Shown piece by piece: positions 22,419 to 52,938 of a DNA stretch of 64,000 nt; the stretch's first letter is position 1, and the number at the start of each line of letters is the position of its first letter. The notes under the pieces are model-generated. The model was not told the DNA's origin. It did not search any database and saw nothing but the letters and a program-made list of their open reading frames with translations. This stretch comes from Hexactinellida sp. DTS-2022 (Eukaryota > Porifera > Hexactinellida). The DNA is taken from contig JAPNXP010000006.1 in the NCBI GenBank assembly GCA_028753945.1, positions 2,790,001 to 2,854,000 of the forward strand, given 5' to 3'. The position numbers and the translations under genes are program-made.

Positions 22419-25400
22419 CTAGATCGTAGATAACAGCTCGTCTTTCGCCACTGGGGATGTGCCGTTGCAGGTCACGTTTCCATAATCTGGGCTCACCATG
22501 ATTGGGATTGCGTTGCCTGAATAACCTCGAGCAGAGGTCCCCACAAAGTTCGATGTACATTGCCTTTGAGCGCTTTCGATAGAGTGTTGTGAGCTGTTAT
22601 TCAATCGTTTGGACATCATCTGAAATAGTTCCATATGTCTTGTAATTCGTGATCAGCATTGATACAACAGGTTGATAGTGGTCGAAGTAGTTTTGGATAT
22701 AAAGGATGGCTGTAGGCTTATCTGTGGCTCTGTGTAAACTCCAACGCACCTCGCGAATTAATGAGTCTTTCGGTGTGTAGAAGTTATTGGCAATGTAGAC
22801 ATCGGCATCAAGAATAGCAGAAGCAGCATAAATTTCCACATCTGTTCCCCAAATGGATTCACGATTCATAAGTCTTTGTGTGCTAAGGTATTCACACGGT
22901 GTCATTCGTTTGGTTTTAAAATACCATCCTAGTTTCCTTGTTCCTTCACTGGCGATAAAGCGAGAGATGATGGAACGAAGATGTAGGTGGCTGTTTTCAC
23001 TCCCAGTAATTAATTTGGATATGCATCGAAATAGACAATTACCATCTCCTTCGATATGTTCCGCATCGCAAGGTTCAAAATCGCTAAGTAACTTCCCAAC
23101 GCTATTAAATGGTTGTCTAGAAACTGATTCAAATAATATCCCCAACATATCGCATTTACTTCGCTGCCAATTTTCATCTATCACTGTGATCCTTGGGTCC
23201 ATCGGTGTGTCGTAGGGATTACGAAGCGGAACTGCGTCGTGAAATGATTCCCATAGCATTGTGTTTAGATACTGCATTCCCTAAAATATTAATTTGTTTA
23301 CCATTTAATAAATATAAGAATTATTACAGTGGAGCCTCCCATAACGGACACTCCAAATAGCGGACAACCTCTAAATAACGGACAACCCTCGTGGCACGGA
23401 TTTATTTATTTAGCATATGTCTAATAGAAAAGCAACCTCTAAATAGCGGACAACCTCTAAATAACGGACAACGGTTCCGGTCCCAAGGTGTCCGTTGTTC
23501 AGAGGTTCTACTGTATAATGTAACAACTTGCTTTGATATACTAAACAAATATATACTAATTAAAATTGAATTGAGTTGTATGAGTGTATTGGTAGATAGT
23601 TTTGACTTACCAGGAAATACAGTACTTTGTGTGTGTATCTAGCACGTTGGGTATCTGTATAGCTGGGGTAGAGTTCTGATGTCCATCCGAGTATAATCTC
23701 CATAATATCTCTCTTCTACAATAAATGGGTAAAATGGTAATTTGTAGTTATCGTATGAATCATTGTTAATTAACTTACAACTTCCTCTTCTTTTCCACCA
23801 TCCAAATAACATCGTGTTGGGAGTGTAGCTGTGCGCTTTGTATAGCAAGTGGTCCAGCTCTTCATGTAGAGGAGTCATGAAGGTCTGCCCACGTATATTC
23901 TGCTTTAGGATTTCCTACAAATGACAACATTGTAATAAGAAAAATATTATGGAATGTTACAAATATTCTGGATTGACGTCAAGAGAAGGTGTAAAGCGAA
24001 AATAACAATGAGTGTCAATAAAGATTACACTAAATAAATTAGACTATAGATGTGAAACGGGAAGCTTACTTTTAAGTTATTAAGGTGTTGAAATATAGAT
24101 TCCGTAGAAAATCCGAAGAGATTCTGGTACATCTAAAAAAGGAATATTTTACTATTAACACTATTTTATCTTTTAAATAACAACTCAATCACAATGAATT
24201 TACCTGTGAGGTGTTGATTCCGATGCTAGTATCGAGGCTTACTTTCTTCTTAGTATTCTTGGGACTAGAGGATCTTTCGAAGTAAGCTCTTGTGATATGG
24301 ATTGGAATCTTTTTGTCCTTCTTCGTTCCTAATTCTGTTTGAGAAATTATAACATGGCTTTCTGTTGATTTCGACACCGTGTAAGGCCCGAGATGTTTCG
24401 TTTGCTTCTTTGTTTTGGGCATGTGTTTTATTTTGGGCATGTTGGTATAGATGATCTTATCACCCTTCTTTAGAGGTGTACTAATTACAGAGATAATAAT
24501 TATGGAAATAATTATTATCGAAGGAATGAATCGAACTTTAGTAACAAGATAGACTGTGTGTTATGTATGAATTAAATATCGTCAGCAGTTCAACTAACCG
24601 ACTAGTGTTAACTTTCTTATCATATTGTATCTTCTGCTTGAGTTGTTCAAAACTGATGCAGTCCATAGCTGATTGCTGTGTAGAAGTTCGAGATTCATCG
24701 ATGTTGCTAACTTCTTCGAGGGGATTTTCAGGAGGTGGGCAAAAGATGTCGTTTATACCTTCGGTATCATCGAGTGGATCTGTGAGTTCTGAGAAAATCG
24801 ATTCTTCCAAATCAAAGTCTTCCTCATCGTTGGTATGCAGGTCGTTAATGGTGGACAAGAGGTCTTGATGCCGGGACTCTCTTCCCCACATGACCTTGAA
24901 TGGAGTTTGTCCGAGGGATCTTTTCTTGCAGGAGTTCATTGCAAGCACAGCCTGTTTGAGCAGTTTGGACCAATGATCCCCTATCTGACTCTCCATTTTA
25001 ATCAGTTTTCTATATGGATAATACGTAAATTGGTCTTAAAATTATATTACAAAATACTAACTGTTTCAGAATCTTGTTGTGCGCTTCGACTACGCCGTTA
25101 GCCATGGGGTGGTAAGCACGAGTGCTACGATTGTCGATACCCAATTTCTGGTTGAATTCCTTAAATATCTGTTAAATACAATAAATAAAAATACAATAAA
25201 TAAATACAATAAATAAAAATACAATAAATAAATACAAATAACAATACATACTATAATATAATTATAGTATGTTAGTGTGTAAAATTAGCTAATTATGATG
25301 ATTATATAAGTTATTTAATTTTAATGAATTAATATGAATGAATTACAGGGGCGGCATACCCGGTACGGCGAGGTACGGCGAGCCGTACCTCGCCGTACCT

Positions 25401-27770: not shown

Positions 27771-30700
27771 AGTAGTGCAGCCGCTAAGTGCAACATTTTG
27801 GTCAAATTGTGCTTTTGATGATAAAATCGTGAAACTTGGCACTAAGTAAGAGCACATCATACCAAACGTTTTTGGATATAAGGGCATCTTGGATTTTTTC
27901 CATGGTAAAAATATTGGGGGTCAAAAAATTGACCCCTAAAAAAAATCGCCGTTTTTAAAAATCAAGGTTATATTATCCAGACGCATTCTAAACAACTTTT
28001 TATTCTCAGATTCGTGCTCAGCACTTAATTTCCCACATTTTAATGTGTATGTAGACCGTATTTGGAGAAATTTTGATGTTCACTACTGAATCACTAGCAA
28101 CGGCCTGAAATTTCACAGAATTGCATATTTACTCTAGCTTTATTGAGTGACCCCTTTTATTTTATTATGTCCACTATGTACGAATCAACTAATATGGATA
28201 CTAACCAATCGTAAAAATTATTGAAAGCTAGACAAGTGTAGTGATGAGAAAATACAGAAATAACAATATTGTTGATTCTTTTTTTAGTTCTCAGTGCACA
28301 GTCCACCACAGTGGCAAAGTGCAGTACACTGGAGTGCTGCCTTTAGGCAGTTGCACTGTTTTCTGCAACCTTTCTTGCAACCACACCGCAGCAGTTCTCT
28401 ACAAACCTTCGTAGCTTCCGGAAGAGTTGTCCAGCATATTTCCAAGCCGCCTGATTCCTTACTTTTCCAACCCCATTCACTCGGAGATGGAATCTTTGGG
28501 TCTGCAACCATTGCTTGGGCCCAAGAGTAACTGGCTTGATAAGCTGCACGCTTTGTGTGCTGTATGAGAGCTTCTTTTGTCGTGGGAAGCCCTTCTATTG
28601 CTCTGCCTTTCTGTGTGTAGAGCTGCTTTCGTACCTGATTGATACATTGCAGGCTGCTGGTGCGGTCGTAAATTAATACTACGAATCGCTCCAATGGCTT
28701 CATAACACTCTCTATGGATTCTGGGTTAGCAATCAACTAACATAATGCTGGTGTGACATCGTCGTAGACTTTCCATGTGTCTCACGCTGTCCTTTTCCCC
28801 TACCTGCAAAACATGACACTGTATCGCAGCCTGTGAACGCATGGAACATTGGCAGAGCCATACACCGATCAGGCCCCAAAGCTCTAGCCATCTCATGAGC
28901 TGCTAAGTAACGAAAGCTTTTTCCAGCACCAAAAGCGATCCATATTTCAGCTTTCTTGAGACGCTGGGCTGATGTCACTGCCAATACTACCACATCTGTG
29001 TCAACTGTGCGTATTGATACTTTGGTATTCCCTTCTTTCATAGCATCTTCCAGATGTAGAATGATCCTTGTGTCTGCCTCTTCATGTGTGCATGGAGCTA
29101 GCCTTGAGATATCTTTTGGAAGATTACAAAGTACCTCTATGTGATGTGTGCTGATTATCTGTTTATCGCTGTCAATGGATGCTATAGAAGTTGCGAGGAA
29201 AGAGAAAAGCTCAACTTTATCTTCATCAATGCGCAGAAACTCTTGCCAGTTTATAGGAACTAAACTTGAAGGCTCCACACGTCTCCGAACACCATTCCCC
29301 CTCTTTCTTCGTGTTTCGGCCTTCAAGCTGTCGGGTTTGTACTCGTCCCAAACAATGTCGACTCGGCTTGCATATTGCAACTGGGACTCAATGTATGGCA
29401 GGAAAACTTGTTTTGCGTAATCCGAGAAAGTCTGCAGAAGCAGGACGTAGCATATTCACAATACCAGATCCATCAAGAATAATAACTTGTACACTGGGAT
29501 TCGTGGCGTCCTCTTAGCAGACCACCAAGTCCTCCAAGCATCTAACTAGATCGGACTTTGTACCCAATCTCAGTTTACCATTTTGTGATAACGCTGGTGG
29601 ATATGCATGATTTTCATGCTCAAAAAAATCATCTAGGTTACCGCCACGTACTTGTGATGCAACATACAGCCGAGAAAATAGGGAACAATCATTCTTCAGA
29701 GAAGAATGACTTAGTCTTCTCTCGGACAGGAAGCCGGTTAAACAGAGGAAGATTGTTCTTCTTGATGGGAGCTGAAATGGGTTTTGTTTGATTGACAAGC
29801 CGATCAATAACATAGGTGTCATACTGCTCTTCTCCTAATTTCTCAATTTTACGCACAGTGTTAATAACGGCTGGATCAGCAAGGTCTCTACTATCCAGTA
29901 CAAGAAGATCGCTGCTGTTCTCAGTGAACGGGTTTCTCATTTCTTCTATGGTATTTGCTAGACTTTTCACATCTCGTGCAAACGCCAATTGTACATGTTT
30001 AGACTCCTCGTGATGTCTCATATCATGTGTTCTTCTAGTCTCAGTTGCTGCTTCAAACTCTCCAATAAGTCTGGACATCTCAGGTCCAGACACCATCCAG
30101 CGTCGAAGAGCAGCAGGGTTCTCAGTTAGGCCTACGGCTCCACCATCATCTTTCACAGAAGCATTGTTTTGCTCGTGGGCATGGTCAATGGCAATAGCGG
30201 AGAATCTGCGTATTGTCTTCTTCACAACAAAATCCCCTTTCAGAAACTCGGAAAACACAGTAGGCTGAAAGTCCTTTAGTGTAACCATGTCCCGAAGATG
30301 AACAGAGATCCATCTAGCGTAATGAGTATGGTCCAAGGCGAAAAACTAGGGAACGATCTTGATAAGAGCGTCTATGTATAGCTCGAAATCTGGCTCAATT
30401 ATGGATCTCACGTAGACCATCACTGCCAATTCCATCTGCAGGATTAACAACCAGAACTTGAACTGTGGATATAATTCGGCCCTATTTGAGCACCAACTAT
30501 TATCTTCCTCTCCCAAACTATTGCAATACTCTAAGTATGCTTCCTGCAGAAGTAGATACAGGCTGCAAGCTGTGATCTGGTGAGTTTGTCGTGTGCGTGA
30601 CACATGAACGACCCGAAGAAATGAATCAGCCGTACCAGGTGTAGCAACATTGCTTTGTACTAGTGCACCTGTCCAACTACTGCCATCTAGAAGATCGCCA

Positions 30701-32089
30701 ATTGTCTTGAAAGCTGCCATCTCTATACTACCTATGTAGTCCTCCAAAAAATATAATGAATTGATTTTCGCCGTGGCTTGTTGTCCAGTTCCACTGGATT
30801 TGTTTTGCGATTGCGTACAGAGGCTGATCCATAGTGATGACGGGCACCTGTCCATGATTTAAAATATCAACTGCCTTCTTCACTACATCCATTGAGTGGC
30901 GAATCATGGCTACGGAGTGAGCTTGATCGTAAAAAAGGGGCAGAAGAGAATTGTGTGTCACACAGCTATCTAATGCTTCATTGGGAGGTTGAAGGCTAGC
31001 ATGGTATGCAGACCAGGAAACTGCCTCATCTCCCTGGTTCTTTTCAGTCGACACCACTCGATTAACTTGTTTCAGCCACCTGTCAAGAAAAAAATATATA
31101 ATGATAATAAACTGGGTAGGGTAAGTTAAATTAGACTGTACCTATATTCCTTCTGTAAAGCTTGAGGCATGCGCTCGCAGTTTCCTCTGTTGGGACCATA
31201 TAGCTTTGGTACAGGTGGATCATGCCTATGCAAAATAATAGGAGGCACACTAGTGTAAGATTCTGGAAGGTTTAATTTCGTTTTCTTCGCATTAGTATCA
31301 TCCTGAATAGCGATAACAGCCCGTTGGACTCCATGGAAGTTCTGACTTTGGTGCTGAAATAGGGATATTCCAGTTCCATGAAATGAGTCATGAGCACTAG
31401 TTGAACTGGGGTTGTGCTCAATATTGTCTACTGCGGCAGTTGTGAAAAGTCCGCCTTTAAGTTGAAGGGGGCAAACAACTTTTTCCTGCTCATAGTGATA
31501 ACAAACTTTGTTACCCAGTTCAGTGGAGATGTTTAATACCCGGTCATACGATATGCACAGACCCAGGTTAAAAAGAGTGTCAACAAGTTTACGTTTCCGG
31601 GTATTTGTATGGATCATCACGCCTAAATAGATGGGCAGTGGTGTTTCTTGCTGTTGGATGTGCCTGACGTTATCTGTATCCTCCTTGGAACGCTTCGAGC
31701 TGTTGTAAAACAGAAGCTGAGATATAGTTAAAGCTGACTGAGAAATTGATGAGGAACCTGATTGTGATTTGATGTTAGGCCCTTTCAGCACCATATTAAC
31801 TAGTACTTTGAGTGAAAACGGCACAGATTGCTCCTGACACTGGGTGTCAAATGAACCATTGAATTTACTTTTCATTGCAAACATATCTCGTATAACTATC
31901 ATGGCTGCCTTTGCAAGATGAACTGCATCACTATCAGAGTCATGTTCACATGCTTTTCCCAGTGCAGCACCAACATCTTCATTGAAAACAAGAACAATTT
32001 CATGTCCTTGTATGTGAGCTTCCATATCTGGAAAATAACTTAATATCCTATTCTTGAGTTTGGTAGAGTGGACATGCCCTGACATTAAT

Positions 32090-33362
32090 TAGGGCTGTAC
32101 CGGATATCCGGTTCTAATCCGGTATCCGGTGTATCCGGCCAATTACCGGATATCCGGGCGGAACCGGATATGAACAACTATCCGGCCGGATAACGGTCCC
32201 AATTGTATTTGTGTATGAATTAAAGAATAACTATCTCTCCGAATATAAAGTGAATTTCCATAGCTCTAGGGTCATTAACTGTCCATTTTTTCTGTCGTTC
32301 TAATGTCTGGTACAGGTTATCTTGCATAGATATTCTTGGAGTAGAATTTAAATAGTGTGTAATAACAGAACTAGTTGATTGAAAAAATACTATGATCACC
32401 TTGTTGTGAATTTCTACAAGAGGATTTTCAATTATTGTTTTTTTTTGTAAATTTCTGGATGTGAATGTTTTATGTGGTTCCACAATGGTGACGTGCTATA
32501 TATTTTAGGATTTTTAGCACGTGATATATGTATTGGCATCACATTCATTACAGAGTGCTCTGAAAGAATCGTTCTTAGATAGTGAGAAAAATGCCAAATT
32601 TCACTCATGCTGGGATTGATAAAAAAATGCAACCTTTCAAGCTATAAAATATAGGAATCGAAAATAAATATGTTATTGAAAAGATCTTATTACCAAAGGT
32701 GAATGCGATTGAAAGTATATTCATATACTGTATCAATTGTGGAATCACATAAATTATTTTAGAAGCCTCCCTAAAAAACACAAGCTTAGTATATGTACAA
32801 ATTAATTATGAATAAGCAGAACTTGTTCTTGATGTGATATTATGGTTTCATTTGTCAAATACATATTTAGTCGCAAGGCTGGATTCGGTTAACCGGCTAA
32901 CCGGTTAACCGTTGCTGACATCGGTTAACGGTTAGAGATTTTATCAACCAGTTTGCCGGTCTGTTGAATATCAGCAGAGTTATTGGCAAATTAATGTATA
33001 AAGTATTAGATTTTTTGAATTTTATCAAAATATGTTAGTGCTAAATCCATTTCTCATCACCAATTAAGAAATTTTCTTAGACAACATTGATTTAAATTCA
33101 CCTAAAGCACGAAATGTATCAGTTAATATACTTATGCGGTTATACTTTATACAGCTGAGTCTTATTCTGTAGTATAATCAAATTTTTATAAAGGATTTAT
33201 TGTATTGAGTAGGATGGGCGGTTAACCGGTTAACCGTGGCCTCAGATCGGTTAACCAACCCCACCCTTGTAATAGCCGGATATCCGGCCGGATATCGGAT
33301 AATTGAGCACCGGATATCCGGATCCGGCCGGAGTAGAGAATCTCTAATCCGGTACAGCTCTA
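32090..33362. mobile_element. hAT derivative inserted in the nuclease-type gene
   Basis: Ends TAGGGCTGTACCGGAT and ATCCGGTACAGCTCTA (one mismatch as inverted repeats) are flanked by ACATTAAT at 32082-32089 and 33363-33370, a perfect 8-bp duplication. Both ends are dense in GGATATCCGG words. A further hAT-like repeat with GGTTAACCGG ends (about 32878-33276) is nested inside. It contains transposase fragments. Confidence 0.85.
32220..32632 (-). pseudogene. hAT transposase N-terminal fragments with BED finger half
   Basis: One minus-strand frame includes YSTSPLWNHIKHSHPEIY, the His-His end of a BED zinc finger. The next includes QKKWTVNDPRAMEIHF, like the segment after the finger in ZBED-type hAT transposases. 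The catalytic core is missing, so the host element is an internally deleted hAT. Confidence 0.6.
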
Positions 33363-34390
33363 ACATTAATGTTCCAAGTTGTTCTAGTCTGTTGCTGTAC
33401 AGATTTGTCAGATCAGACAGTTTGAAAATTGGTATGACAAGATCGTCGATTCGGGCTTCTTCAATAAAGGACACTAGTTCAGCAAATGCAACGCCGTGGT
33501 TAAGAGCATCTACATGAGATTCTGTGGTACAAGTTTTTGCTTCTCTTGTTCTATTGTATCGAGAAACTAGGCACTTGATATGATATTCAGCATCCAGAGC
33601 AACCATGTCTCCAGCACTCAGTTTAGCTAGTAGAAATTTGTCCTGCAAACGTAGAGCACAATGACGGACACGAACATCAGATGAAGTGTAGACGCTCTGT
33701 GCAAAGACTCACCAGCTTGAGCCTCCGTATCACAGAAGAAACAGTCATTGGCGGTGGAATGTAACCGTTTCTTACTTGCACGGGTGAACATGTTATCGAC
33801 GTTTGAAGGCGAACTGTTTTCGGGTGCGACGGGGGGCACTTTCCTCTTCTCTGCCCTTTGAAGTTCTGTTTTGTTAAACTTCAGTCTGCATGAATCATGC
33901 CATTTCGCTTTATGATGTTGGAAGCTTGCTTCAATACCCTCACCTTTATCTAATCGAGATAAACTTATTGTTCTTGGCAAGCAATCGAGTTTTTCGAAAG
34001 CCAGAAGATTTTCAGCAGTGGTCTTATAACCGGCTCCTTTTTTGTCATGTTTTGAATCAGCAGGACAAGAGAGGCTTTCATATGTGTCTGCCTGACACAA
34101 AACACATAAATTCCAGTCTATAGTGACATATTTTATTTCCGATGTTCCAGGTTGCAAGGAGCCTACTATTTTGTAGGCTTTGGACATAGTCTTTCACTGG
34201 TCTAGTACTTAGATAGGATAAGCTAAAAAGGACAACACGATATGGTTAAAGTAAAGTTGGAGATAGAATGTGTAACATTTAAGACCTTTACTAGTGAACA
34301 ACAAAAAAATCTCCAAATATGGTCTATATACACATAAAAATGCTGGAAATTAAGTGCTAAGTACGAATCTGAGAATAAAAGTTGTTTTAA

Positions 34391-35112
34391 GGTTAAATTA
34401 CGGCAGATTCACCCAAAAAAACACATTAATTTAGTTTTGAAGGTGGGAGTTAGAATTTCACATATATGATGGAAGACATTATAGCTATTTCCAAACTGAA
34501 AACAAAATCTAATTATCTTCTATAAATTCGAAATTTTTTGGCTTGCAGTATTATGCTAATACAAAAGTCCCATAGGGGGATTTTTTCAGATTACACCTGA
34601 TAAGTGTGTGGTTTGCAAGATCATTATTTGCTAAAGACCTGTACTGTGTGATCTATCAGATAGATCATCGTTATGGGCGGTTGGTGGGCGGTTTAGAATT
34701 TTGATTAGATCTAAATAAAAAATATTCCGACCTTTTGAAACCAAAAAATGAATAAAAAGGTCATCTTTTCATGCGAAATTTGATAAAATGCTTGATAAAA
34801 ACAATTCCAAGTCATAATTCAAAAATGTAAACCGTCTACCAACTCCTTACGCTTATAATCTTTGAATATTGAATCTGATAACAAACATTGATGGCCGCAT
34901 TGCCAAATTACCGCATAATATCTACCACCACTTTTGGAAATCGCCCTATGGGAGATTTGTATTAGCCAAATTTTGAAACCGACCAAAAAAATAAAAAGTA
35001 TAATAGATAGGGACATTTTCTTTCTGGTTTATTGATTTGTATCGTATAGGTATATATTTCTCACAATTACAGATTAATACAAGAACTTTCATTCACGTGG
35101 GGTAATTTAACC
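34391..35112. mobile_element. TTAA-flanked element in the right terminal repeat
   Basis: Ends GGTTAAATTAC and GTAATTTAACC are inverted copies, flanked by TTAA at 34387-34390 and 35113-35116. Removing it rejoins the two halves of the larger element's terminal repeat. No coding capacity is seen. Confidence 0.75.
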
Positions 35113-35297
35113 TTAAGAGCACTGGAAAAGATAATCTTGATTTTTTAAAACGGCTATTTTTTTTTCGGGGTTAATTATTTTGACCCTCAAAATGCCCCTA
35201 TATCCAAAAAGGTTTGGTATGATTTGGTCTTACTTTGTGCCAAGTTTCACGCTTTTATCATCAAAAGCACAATTTTTCCACTAAGCGGCTGCACTAA

Positions 35298-42909: not shown

Positions 42910-44627
42910 ATGGCTAATTCATTTAAGACACCACCAAATTTGAGAGAAGATATTTCATATGATCAATGGAAAAGCAAATTCAGCTTTGGAAAACCTTTAC
43001 TGATTTGCCAGATGCAAAACAGGGTCCAGCGATTTGTTTAGCTCTTACAGGTAAGGCACGAGAGGCAGTTTTAGAACTTGATATTGAAGCTATCAGTTGT
43101 GAGGATGGAGTTAAGTCATTACTTGAGAGATTAGATAAATTATATTTGAGAGATCGTGATCAAACTATATATGCAGCTTACGAAAAGTTTGAAAAATTTG
43201 TACGCCCGTTAGATATGGGGATGGCTGATTATCTGATTGAGTTTGATAGGTTATATGACAAAATTAAATTGTATAATATTAAACTCCCGGATCCAGTACT
43301 TGCTTACCGTGTATTAAAAAGCTCGAATATTACTGCAGAAAAAGAACAATTGGCTCGAGCTACTTTATCTGAACTTACCTATAGTAACATGCAAAGTCAA
43401 CTGAGGCGAATATTTGATGAAATAATAACATCTAAATCTACGGATTCCATAAAAGTTGAACCAATATATCAAGCATGGCAAGATGATAACTTGACCTATT
43501 ACAGTTCTCGAGGACGGAAAAACATAAATACTAATAATTATAATGGTAAATTTCAACAATTTAAGAGGCAAGAATATCCTAATAAATGGAACGTGCACAA
43601 ACAAAATTATTCTAAGAAAACGAATCCTTTAAACTTGCATGGAAAGCCAACAAAATGCCACATTTGTGATTCTATCTTTCATTGGGCTAATCTGTGTCCA
43701 CGACGACGCAACTTTGATAAGGATAATGTTAACTATATTTGTATTGGTTCAGATGTCATTAGTGACACAGCAGGGCAAGAGATAAATATAACTCTAATTA
43801 CTAAACATCAAACTGATTTGGAGTATGATATTAAAGAAGTCTTTAGTACTGCAATTCTAGACTCTGGATGCACCCGAACAGTTTGTGGGGAAACGTGGCT
43901 GCAATGCTATCTTGACACATTAGATGAAAATGACCTTGAATCAGTAAGGACACAACAAAGTCTTACCAAATTCAAATTCGGAGATGGAAAGGTATATCAT
44001 TCTGACAGAAGAGTATCATTTCCTGCTGAAATTGGTGGCTTAAATATATTTATTGAAACTGATGTAATTGACAATGATCTTCCGCTACTCTTAAGCCGAT
44101 CGTCAATGAAAAAGGCTGGTGCAAAGTTGGACTTCGAAAATGACAAAGTAGTCATGTTTGGGACTGCACAAGATTTATTGTTTACTTCCAATGGACATTA
44201 CTGCATACCATTAAACAGGCGAAGAAAAGTTATTGATGAAATAAGTTTTGATAAATTAACTACAAAAGTTTTGTTTGCTAACACTTTAGAAGGAAAATCA
44301 ATGAAAGAAAAAGAAGCTATTGCTCTTAAACTTCATAAACAATTTAGTCATCCAACAAGCAATAGACTCAAAAGACTACTATCAGATGGTGGAGTTAATG
44401 ACAAAGATCTTTTTCAAATGATTGAAGATGTTGAATTTAAGTGTGAAGTGTGTACAAAATACAAACGTCCTTCTCCAAAACCAATTGTCTCTTTTCCATT
44501 AGCAAAGGAATTCAATGAAACTATAGCTATGGATTTAAAAGTATATGTTGGACACTATATACTTCATTTAATTGACCATGCAACTCGATTCAGTGCGGCC
44601 ACTGTGATATCTTCTAAAACGAAATAA
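42910..44627 (+). pseudogene. Copia Gag, protease and N-terminal integrase
   Basis: ATG at 42910 opens MANSFKTPPNLREDISYDQW; a one-base shift near 42975 moves to the main frame, which is open for 553 codons. Gag helix region to about 43500; zinc knuckle CHICDSIFHWANLC (CX2CX4HX4C) at about 43656; protease AILDSGCTRTVCG at about 43850; pre-integrase finger with HKQFSH and CEVCTKY; then the first catalytic Asp in AMDLKVYVGHY at about 44530. A TAA at 44625 cuts it in mid-integrase. Not functional as a single polyprotein. Confidence 0.8.
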
Positions 44628-45460
44628 AATATTATTTCAAAAGTATTTCTAATTTGGATAAGTATTTTTGGTCCTCCCAAACAAATATTAACAGATAATG
44701 GTGGTGAGTTTAACAATGATACATTTAGAGAAATGGGAGAAAAGCTCAACACGAATATAAAACGACTGCCGCGGAAAGTCCTTGGTCAAACGGCATAAAT
44801 GAGAGACACAATGGCTTATTACAAAACATGATACATAAAACTATTAGTGACACAAAATGTTCTCTGGAAATAGCAGTAGCATGGAGTGTCTCGTCAAAAA
44901 ATGCGCTTGCAAATATTTATGGCTATAGCCCCAATCAATTAGTGTTTGGAAAGAATCCAAACTTTCCTTCTATTCTACATGATAAACTTCCTGCTTTGAA
45001 CGATAAGACCAGTTCTGATACAATGTGTGATAATCTAAATGCTATGCGGGTTTCAAAAATAGCTTTCTTTGAGGCTCAATCTGATGAAAAATTGAAAAGA
45101 GCAATACGACACCAGACGAGACAATCTACGTCTCTAATTTTTGAAAATGGTGACTCTGTATTTTATAAAAGAGATAAAACAGATGAATGGAAAGGACCTG
45201 GAAGAGTAATAGGCACGGATCATAAAGATGTATTGATTAAACATGGCTCTAATTACGTCCGCGTGCACCCATGCAGAGTGGTTCACGAATTTCCTAAAAC
45301 AAATGAAGTTGTAACTCAAATAAAATCTGCTAAATCAAGCGAACAACTTTCACAACTTAATAACACGGATAGTGAAAGTGAAATTGAGGAACAAATAAGT
45401 GATCTCAAAGACAAAGAGAGCAATTGCTGCCAAAAAACAAGTCGTATAATCCTAAGTTGA
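44628..45460 (+). pseudogene. Copia integrase, C-terminal half
   Basis: After the stop the frame reads ILTDNGGEFNN (second Asp), shifts within AAAACGACTGCCGCGG near 44765, and continues with SPWSNGINERHNG (catalytic Glu). The ATG-led frame from 44828 covers YGYSPNQLVFGKNP and the C-terminal DNA-binding part (VFYKRDKTDEWKGPGRVIG), typical of Copia. At least one stop and one frameshift. Confidence 0.75.
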
Positions 45461-51429: not shown

Positions 51430-51845
51430 TATGGTATAGTGTTTATATGGAATTCAGCATATTAATTCGCTCTAACTTCGCACTTGCCTCTTAATACTAG
51501 TTCCAGATTATGGGACGAATATAAATTCAATTAGAAACATATTTGCTCTAGGGAATATATGTTGGGGTCACAGTATCTGTATCAGCTATATAAAGGTTCT
51601 AGGTTGTACGTATTACATGGAAATCCTAAAACTGCATAATTTAATACACAATAAAATTTGTCTTTATTCATTAAATAGGGTGAATTATTAGATTATACAA
51701 ATAACCATTATTTAATTGTTGAGATTGCTTTATATATGATCTACCCTGTAGGCACTTAGTATGTACAAGCAATGCATTGTCTAGTATATATATTAAATAA
51801 ACATTATTTTCTTTACTTTCCTGTGTAAGTCGCTTGTTTGTACTT

Positions 51846-51852
51846 AGTTTTC
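51846..51852 (+). promoter_or_regulatory. Splice-acceptor-like site just before the cystinosin ATG
   Basis: A pyrimidine-rich stretch (TTTTCTTTACTTTCCTG, then CGCTTGTTTGTACTTAG) ends in AG at 51846-51847, five bases before the ATG. It could accept a 5' UTR exon or a spliced leader. Confidence 0.4.
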
Positions 51853-52938
51853 ATGACATATCTAACGCTTCCTTCCATACCGCTCCTCGCAGTTGGAGAT
51901 AGTGGAAACCTCACAGTTCTCTACAATGTTTCTGCTGTCACGAATGTCAACATAACCCTTGTTCCTCCCAGAAATGATGTAATATATTTATCCAAAACGA
52001 ACTTAACTCTTCTTCCCTCTCTGAATTCTACTTTAATTGAATATTTCTCTGAAAATGCTGGATCTGCTACTTTCTCATTTGTTGACTCTTCATATGTGGT
52101 TACTGAATATCTACGGTTTTCAGTAGTGCATGTTCCTGCCTTACAGATACTCTCTTTAATAATAGGGTGGATTTATTTCTTCGCTTGGTCAATTTCATTT
52201 TATCCTCAAGTTTTCCTAAATTTCTATCGCAGGAGTGTAGTTGGACTTAATTTTGACTTCCTAGCTTATAATATAATTGGGTTTACATTTTACAGCATAT
52301 TCAATGTCTGTTTATTCTGGTCGCCTAGTATACAAGAGGACTATTTCTCCCAACACCCTGGGGGAGTTAACCCCGTTCAGTTGAATGATGTAATGTTCTC
52401 TCTACATGCAGTACTCATTACGTTTATTACCATTCTACAATGTTTTTGTTTTGAGAGAGAAGGACAAAGAATTTCTTATACTGCTATTGCATTTATTTGT
52501 ACTTTTTTTTTAACCGTAGTTATAGCAGGTGTACTTGGGCTTGCTAATGCCATTACCTGGTTGATATTCCTCTATGTTCTCTCTTACATCAAACTAGTTA
52601 TTACACTGATCAAATACGTACCACAGGCTTATATGAATTTCAAACGTAAATCTACTTCTGGGTGGAGCATAGGTAATGTCCTGTTAGACTTCACTGGAGG
52701 CATGTTCAGCATTATACAGATGTTGATTCTCTCATTCAACAATAATGACTGGGGATCTATTTTTGGAGACCCAACTAAATTTGGTTTAGGTCTGTTTTCT
52801 ATTCTATTTGATATCTTGTTTATGGTACAACATTATATTCTCTACAGAGTACCCGGAAAAACTTGTGTTTTTGGACAGACTGAAAACACTGAAAAGGAAT
52901 CATTAATTCCAACTGCAACAGAGAAGAGTGTTAAATAA
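51853..52938 (+). CDS. CTNS: Cystinosin, lysosomal cystine/proton symporter
   Basis: The 361-residue frame is intact and of family length (human 367). It exports cystine from lysosomes with protons. Residues 1 to about 95 form a lumenal domain with five N-glycosylation sequons (NLT, NVS, NIT, NLT, NST), followed by seven predicted membrane helices. The two PQ loops are present: SFYPQVFLNFYRRSVVGL at about 115-132 and KYVPQAYMNFKRKSTSGW at about 254-271. LNDVMFSLH and NVLLDFTGG hold the aspartates equivalent to human D205 and D305, the latter tied to proton coupling. The tail has EKESLI, an acidic dileucine-type lysosomal signal in place of the human GYDQLN. ATG 51853 is the first in-frame ATG. 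No intron interrupts the coding sequence, unlike the vertebrate gene. An ATTAAA at 53064-53069 could serve polyadenylation. Confidence 0.95.
   Translation: MTYLTLPSIPLLAVGDSGNLTVLYNVSAVTNVNITLVPPRNDVIYLSKTNLTLLPSLNSTLIEYFSENAGSATFSFVDSSYVVTEYLRFSVVHVPALQILSLIIGWIYFFAWSISFYPQVFLNFYRRSVVGLNFDFLAYNIIGFTFYSIFNVCLFWSPSIQEDYFSQHPGGVNPVQLNDVMFSLHAVLITFITILQCFCFEREGQRISYTAIAFICTFFLTVVIAGVLGLANAITWLIFLYVLSYIKLVITLIKYVPQAYMNFKRKSTSGWSIGNVLLDFTGGMFSIIQMLILSFNNNDWGSIFGDPTKFGLGLFSILFDILFMVQHYILYRVPGKTCVFGQTENTEKESLIPTATEKSVK

Follow-up and report, generated by a model that had tools for sequence, protein, structure and literature searches.

A decayed DNA transposon of a hexactinellid sponge, from a family predicted to join a DDE transposase core to a FEN-like nuclease domain

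Introduction

Which enzyme moves a transposon whose gene encodes a flap-endonuclease-like domain? This question is raised by an element bounded by terminal inverted repeats (TIRs) in DNA from Hexactinellida sp. DTS-2022 (Porifera; GenBank assembly GCA_028753945.1, contig JAPNXP010000006.1, positions 2,790,001 to 2,854,000 of the forward strand). We refer to this whole stretch of 64,000 nucleotides as the window. A preliminary description, made from the letters of the window alone, reported inverted ends and one long minus-strand gene, recognized no DDE core, and raised the FEN/XPG-like domain as a possible catalytic engine. Here, we report that the window element is a broken, decayed copy of an autonomous cut-and-paste DNA transposon and that its family is a mobile element making a 3-bp target duplication. 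Structure models indicate that, in all likelihood, a single protein combines a cysteine-rich N terminus, a DDE core, a FEN/XPG-fold domain, and, in the window subgroup, a CXC-like tail.

Results

The exact ends of the window element lie at 27773 and 35296, one base off those given earlier (27774 and 35297). Inverted-repeat comparison bore out the inverted ends, aligning three arm pairs: 26 nt at 27773-27798/35271-35296 (85% complementarity), 93 nt at 27799-27891/35188-35280 (90%), and 86 nt at 27989-28074/34304-34389 (85%). The left TIR (27773-28074, plus strand) begins TAGTGCAGCCGCTAAGTG. The right TIR (minus strand) is split by a nested insert into an inner portion (34304-34390) and an outer portion (35113-35296) that terminates in CGGCTGCACTA. 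Across the searched genome (112 Mb in 18 contigs), the end motif was found 25 times with at most one mismatch, and a reversed control pattern was not found. Inner sequence was common to 24 of these motifs, with L043 as the exception. Consistent ends were thus recovered in further copies, whose borders coincide with the inverted ends as they do in the window. A genome search with the nuclease DNA returned 21 rows, including about a dozen loci of the same family at 76 to 97% identity (window copy aside).

Nine end pairs were scored for target site duplications (TSDs), drawing on 18 of the 25 motifs; the remaining seven were without a partner among the hits or, as in L043, without the inner sequence, and a copy on C16 with an altered left end was excluded. 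The three bases outside TAGTGCAG/CTGCACTA were identical in six of the nine pairs (GTA, CTT, TAG, TTA, AAT, and CCA) and did not match in the window copy (AAG/ATG), C5a (CTG/TTA), or C13 (CCT/AAA). As a control, mispaired ends matched at 3 bp in 1 of 72 cases, and none of the nine pairs matched at 2, 4, 5, 6, or 8 bp. Among the 40 of 3106 candidates that were scored, joined flanks identified the empty sites of four insertions out of the nine. Six empty-site stretches of 91 bases each carry the 3 bp a single time, with one of the two for C1 showing an additional 2-base difference. Because TA precedes the end motif in 21 of 25 cases, TA was initially read as the target duplication. This reading was rejected, since the empty sites place TA inside the element and show 3 bp duplicated outside it; TA is therefore part of the element, and the duplication is not the TA of Tc1/mariner. 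Target duplications, which the preliminary description had proposed looking for, are thus present and 3 bp long.

The same observations bear on whether the locus might instead be a domesticated host gene or fusion. Long open frames in relatives, such as the 1166 amino acids of L045, would suit such a gene, but TIR ends that coincide in several copies, together with their TSDs and empty sites, the nested inserts, and short copies that match only in their TIRs, leave this explanation with next to no probability. These shorter TIR-bounded copies, of ~2 to 3.3 kb, resemble the window element only near the ends in the stretches examined. One of them (contig C5:3556776-3558734) is inserted in a repeat of which there are dozens of close copies, several of them arrayed at ~850-base spacing.

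The region upstream of the nuclease (about 31431 to 30163) was modeled from the protein of relative L045, whose 1166-residue open frame is overlapped by a 335-residue open frame. The closest folds of the predicted structure were DDE transposases, with the best matches to P element and hAT transposases, and the model shows an RNase H fold in which a helical insertion separates the E from the second D. In the window, this core (30163-31431, minus strand) comprises the blocks VDNIEHN (31411-31431), ITMDQPLYA (30812-30838), GGLH (30734-30745), ALDHTHYARW (30310-30339), and IDHAHEQNN (30163-30189). The D-D-E candidates (D104, D278, and E497 in L045 model numbering) are kept across families in the core alignment. 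Conserved residues were counted over 17 hand-picked rows per alignment, using only rows that cover a column and leaving out decayed copies and near-duplicates. Departures at conserved positions were seen in the decayed copies L011 (HEDSDTR, VETD), L012 (HEEAGTR), and L050 (GCD to RCD) and in L061 and L075, where the second D of the DTD block is replaced by N; L073, L074, and L085 are also listed among the departing copies. A PDB sequence search with the core alignment gave no match to P element or hAT transposases, and a Foldseek search with the transposase model returned no match of any kind under 0.001. In distant members, the core is matched by an unnamed Pfam family, PF20231 (DUF6589), and may carry DUF6589 as its annotation; no mention of DUF6589 was found in the literature searched.

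Downstream of this core, the predicted fold of the nuclease domain (28733-29486, minus strand; modeled from the L045 protein) matches the 5′-nucleases FEN1, EXO1, XPG, GEN1, and XRN over about 260 residues. The five XPG/FEN-type blocks of the preliminary description were located where it had placed them: ILDGSG (29463-29480), VWDEYK (29336-29353), HEEADTR (29066-29086), TVDTDVVV (28985-29008), and FTGCDT (28820-28837). In the window copy they occupy two reading frames, a frame change separating ILDGSG from the rest of the domain. With its predicted fold and active-site acids, the domain has the hallmarks of the FEN/XPG 5′-nuclease superfamily. Pfam XPG_N and XPG_I matched none of 17 A1 members at E values up to 10, although HMMER's filtering discards most weak hits in such scans. 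No XPG, DDE, or CXC family was found by Pfam in nine window pieces, in seven pieces of L045, L046, and L009, or in both alignments, and querying the PDB by sequence, with the window domain as well as with both alignments, yielded chance matches only or none. At the genome level, at least 155 tblastn matches to the nuclease stretch were obtained (E up to 0.01; 100% down to ~30% identity; 150 of 300 candidates scored, making the counts lower bounds), and the stretch is thus more than a chance resemblance.

Could this domain be the main or sole catalytic engine, with the upstream RNase H-like part structural or dead? Its fold is predicted with confidence, FEN-type acids are kept in the aligned rows, and it is constrained between families to a degree similar to that of the upstream half. 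Against this, the upstream core keeps its D-D-E candidates and finds its closest predicted folds among DDE transposases, and TIR- and TSD-bearing cut-and-paste elements are known to use DDE-type cores. We consider such an engine very improbable. The presence of a predicted DDE core leaves both the proposed flap-nuclease engine and the earlier reading without such a core unsupported; a conserved DDE core in relatives, now indicated by the model and the alignment, had itself been named as grounds for abandoning the proposal.

The tail of the gene, CGCKKGCRKQCNCLKAALQCTALCHCGGLC (28296-28385, minus strand), carries nine cysteines in a CXC-like arrangement. This pattern, judged by the CXC consensus, is seen in 6 of 20 long loci as well as in the window, in line with the CXC motif noted earlier; no Pfam CXC match to the tail was obtained with the window pieces, the relatives' pieces, or the alignment.

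All 21 long stretches (window element included) match the nuclease, and 17 of the 21 also match the transposase core, the others being L014 (which continues the L013 element), L016, L070, and L071. L046, L068, and L069 are more distant relatives than L045. Five pairs of relatives share 97.3 to 99.6% protein identity, indicating recent copying. No TIR pair was found at the gene borders of L045, L046, L065 to L069, or L071 within the stretches examined, nor were TSDs of these divergent families. Matches obtained with an out-of-frame translation of L067 were left out of account. In L071 (656-1924, minus strand, contig C11), a 423-residue frame fuses the cysteine-rich N-terminal part straight to the nuclease; this internal-deletion derivative could encode a nuclease-only protein. 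In L070 (768-3392, plus strand, contig C17), a gene that we take to be THAP/P-element-like from its motifs lies within a diverged nuclease gene copy, the first part of which is upstream of it.

The minus-strand gene of the window copy is present and starts near 34187, but the single long gene of the preliminary description is disrupted by an insert (32090-33362) and by frame changes around the nuclease. The probable start (MSKAYK..., at 34187) opens the cysteine-rich N-terminal part (33627-34187, minus strand). A probable intron (GTACAG...TTGACAG; 31082-31141, minus strand) lies between EYRY and RWLKQ; at the matching point, the L045 frame is uninterrupted. The insert in the gene has ends TAGGGCTGTACCGG and is flanked by 8-bp repeats ACATTAAT (32082-32089 and 33363-33370), a length from which we presume it to be hAT-like. 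The insert that interrupts the right arm (34391-35112) is flanked by TTAA and has ends GGTTAAATTAC/GTAATTTAACC. Both are absent at the corresponding sites of copies aligned across them. A piece related to the 34391-35112 insert sits within copy L015 and another beside the end motif of L041.

Elsewhere, the window contains an OTU cysteine protease domain in one open frame (22600-23280, minus strand; Pfam E value 3.6e-10), two PQ-loop repeats in another that is probably a host gene (51829-52935, plus strand), and two retrotransposon-like frames (42963-45460, plus strand) in which a zinc knuckle and protease- and integrase-like parts were discerned by eye, with no Pfam match at E values up to 0.01.

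Discussion

Together, these results put a two-nuclease design, which can be tested, in place of the claimed flap-nuclease-driven transposon. The DDE core would bind the TIRs, excise the element, and join it to a target cut with a stagger of 3 bp. At the element ends or integration junctions, the FEN-like domain could trim 5′ flaps or cleave the second strand, and the CXC tail may bind DNA. Retroviral integration borrows host FEN1 at integration junctions. A stronger form of the design, which we put forward tentatively and hold to be possible rather than probable, is that transposition needs two unrelated active sites: the DDE site would cut and join the transferred strands, and an obligatory, structure-specific FEN-like cut, either second-strand cleavage or 5′-flap removal at the junction, would fix the 3-bp duplication. 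If so, the lineage would bring along its own form of the flap repair for which other transposons and retroviruses rely on the host. The many divergent relatives in the genome, some of them present as nearly identical copies, provide material for testing the role of the FEN-like domain.

Where does the family belong? The AcademX lineage is reportedly due to Kapitonov and Jurka (2010) and Kojima (2020). The AcademX nuclease is of the XPG type. A cysteine-rich motif is reported for Academ, and the CXC-like tail may be its counterpart. P element and hAT transposons make 8-bp TSDs. Academ is counted among the DDD/E superfamilies (PMC9587614), and AcademX is given duplications of 3 or 4 bp and AcademH of 9 or 10 bp, a difference ascribed to nuclease versus helicase (PMC10045372). 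The window family combines a DDD/E transposase, by predicted fold and conserved D-D-E candidates, with TIRs, a nuclease of predicted FEN/EXO1/XPG-type fold that keeps the acids, and a 3-bp duplication, found in six of nine pairs and in the empty sites of four insertions. Because this package fits the published description, we very probably have a new AcademX family of the Academ superfamily, an assignment made by that description. Its kin are accordingly not confined to uncharacterized genes such as those named in the preliminary description. AcademH does not fit: exact duplications occurred only at 3 bp among the lengths tested (2 to 6 and 8), the empty sites likewise show 3 bp, and no Pfam helicase was found among the seven relative and nine window proteins scanned.

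An unlikely alternative is a DDE transposon from another superfamily, perhaps an unnamed one, with a P/hAT-like fold and a FEN-like nuclease gained independently of AcademX. The P element and hAT fold matches, the restriction of distant members to the unnamed DUF6589, and the reliance of the Academ likeness on description rather than protein comparison favor it, whereas a duplication of 3 rather than 8 bp and the pairing of a nuclease with 3- to 4-bp duplications, as described for AcademX in PMC10045372, argue for the AcademX assignment.

Among known systems, the FEN1/EXO1/XPG/GEN1/XRN nucleases resemble the window domain in fold over about 260 residues and in conserved acids; they differ in that identity is 10 to 15%, without detection by Pfam or PDB sequence searches, and in that the window domain lies within a transposase polypeptide. 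In its predicted fold, the core of the window group comes close to the P element and hAT (Hermes) transposases, which likewise have an RNase H-like DDE core interrupted by a large helical insertion. In contrast to these, the window family makes 3-bp duplications (none of the nine pairs agrees over 8 bp), adds a FEN-like nuclease, and has no PDB sequence match. With AcademX, compared by description, it shares TIRs, a 3-bp TSD, a DDD/E transposase, and an encoded nuclease. It differs from AcademX in its own TIR sequence and host, and the predictions reported here add a FEN/EXO1-fold model together with a P-element-like core.
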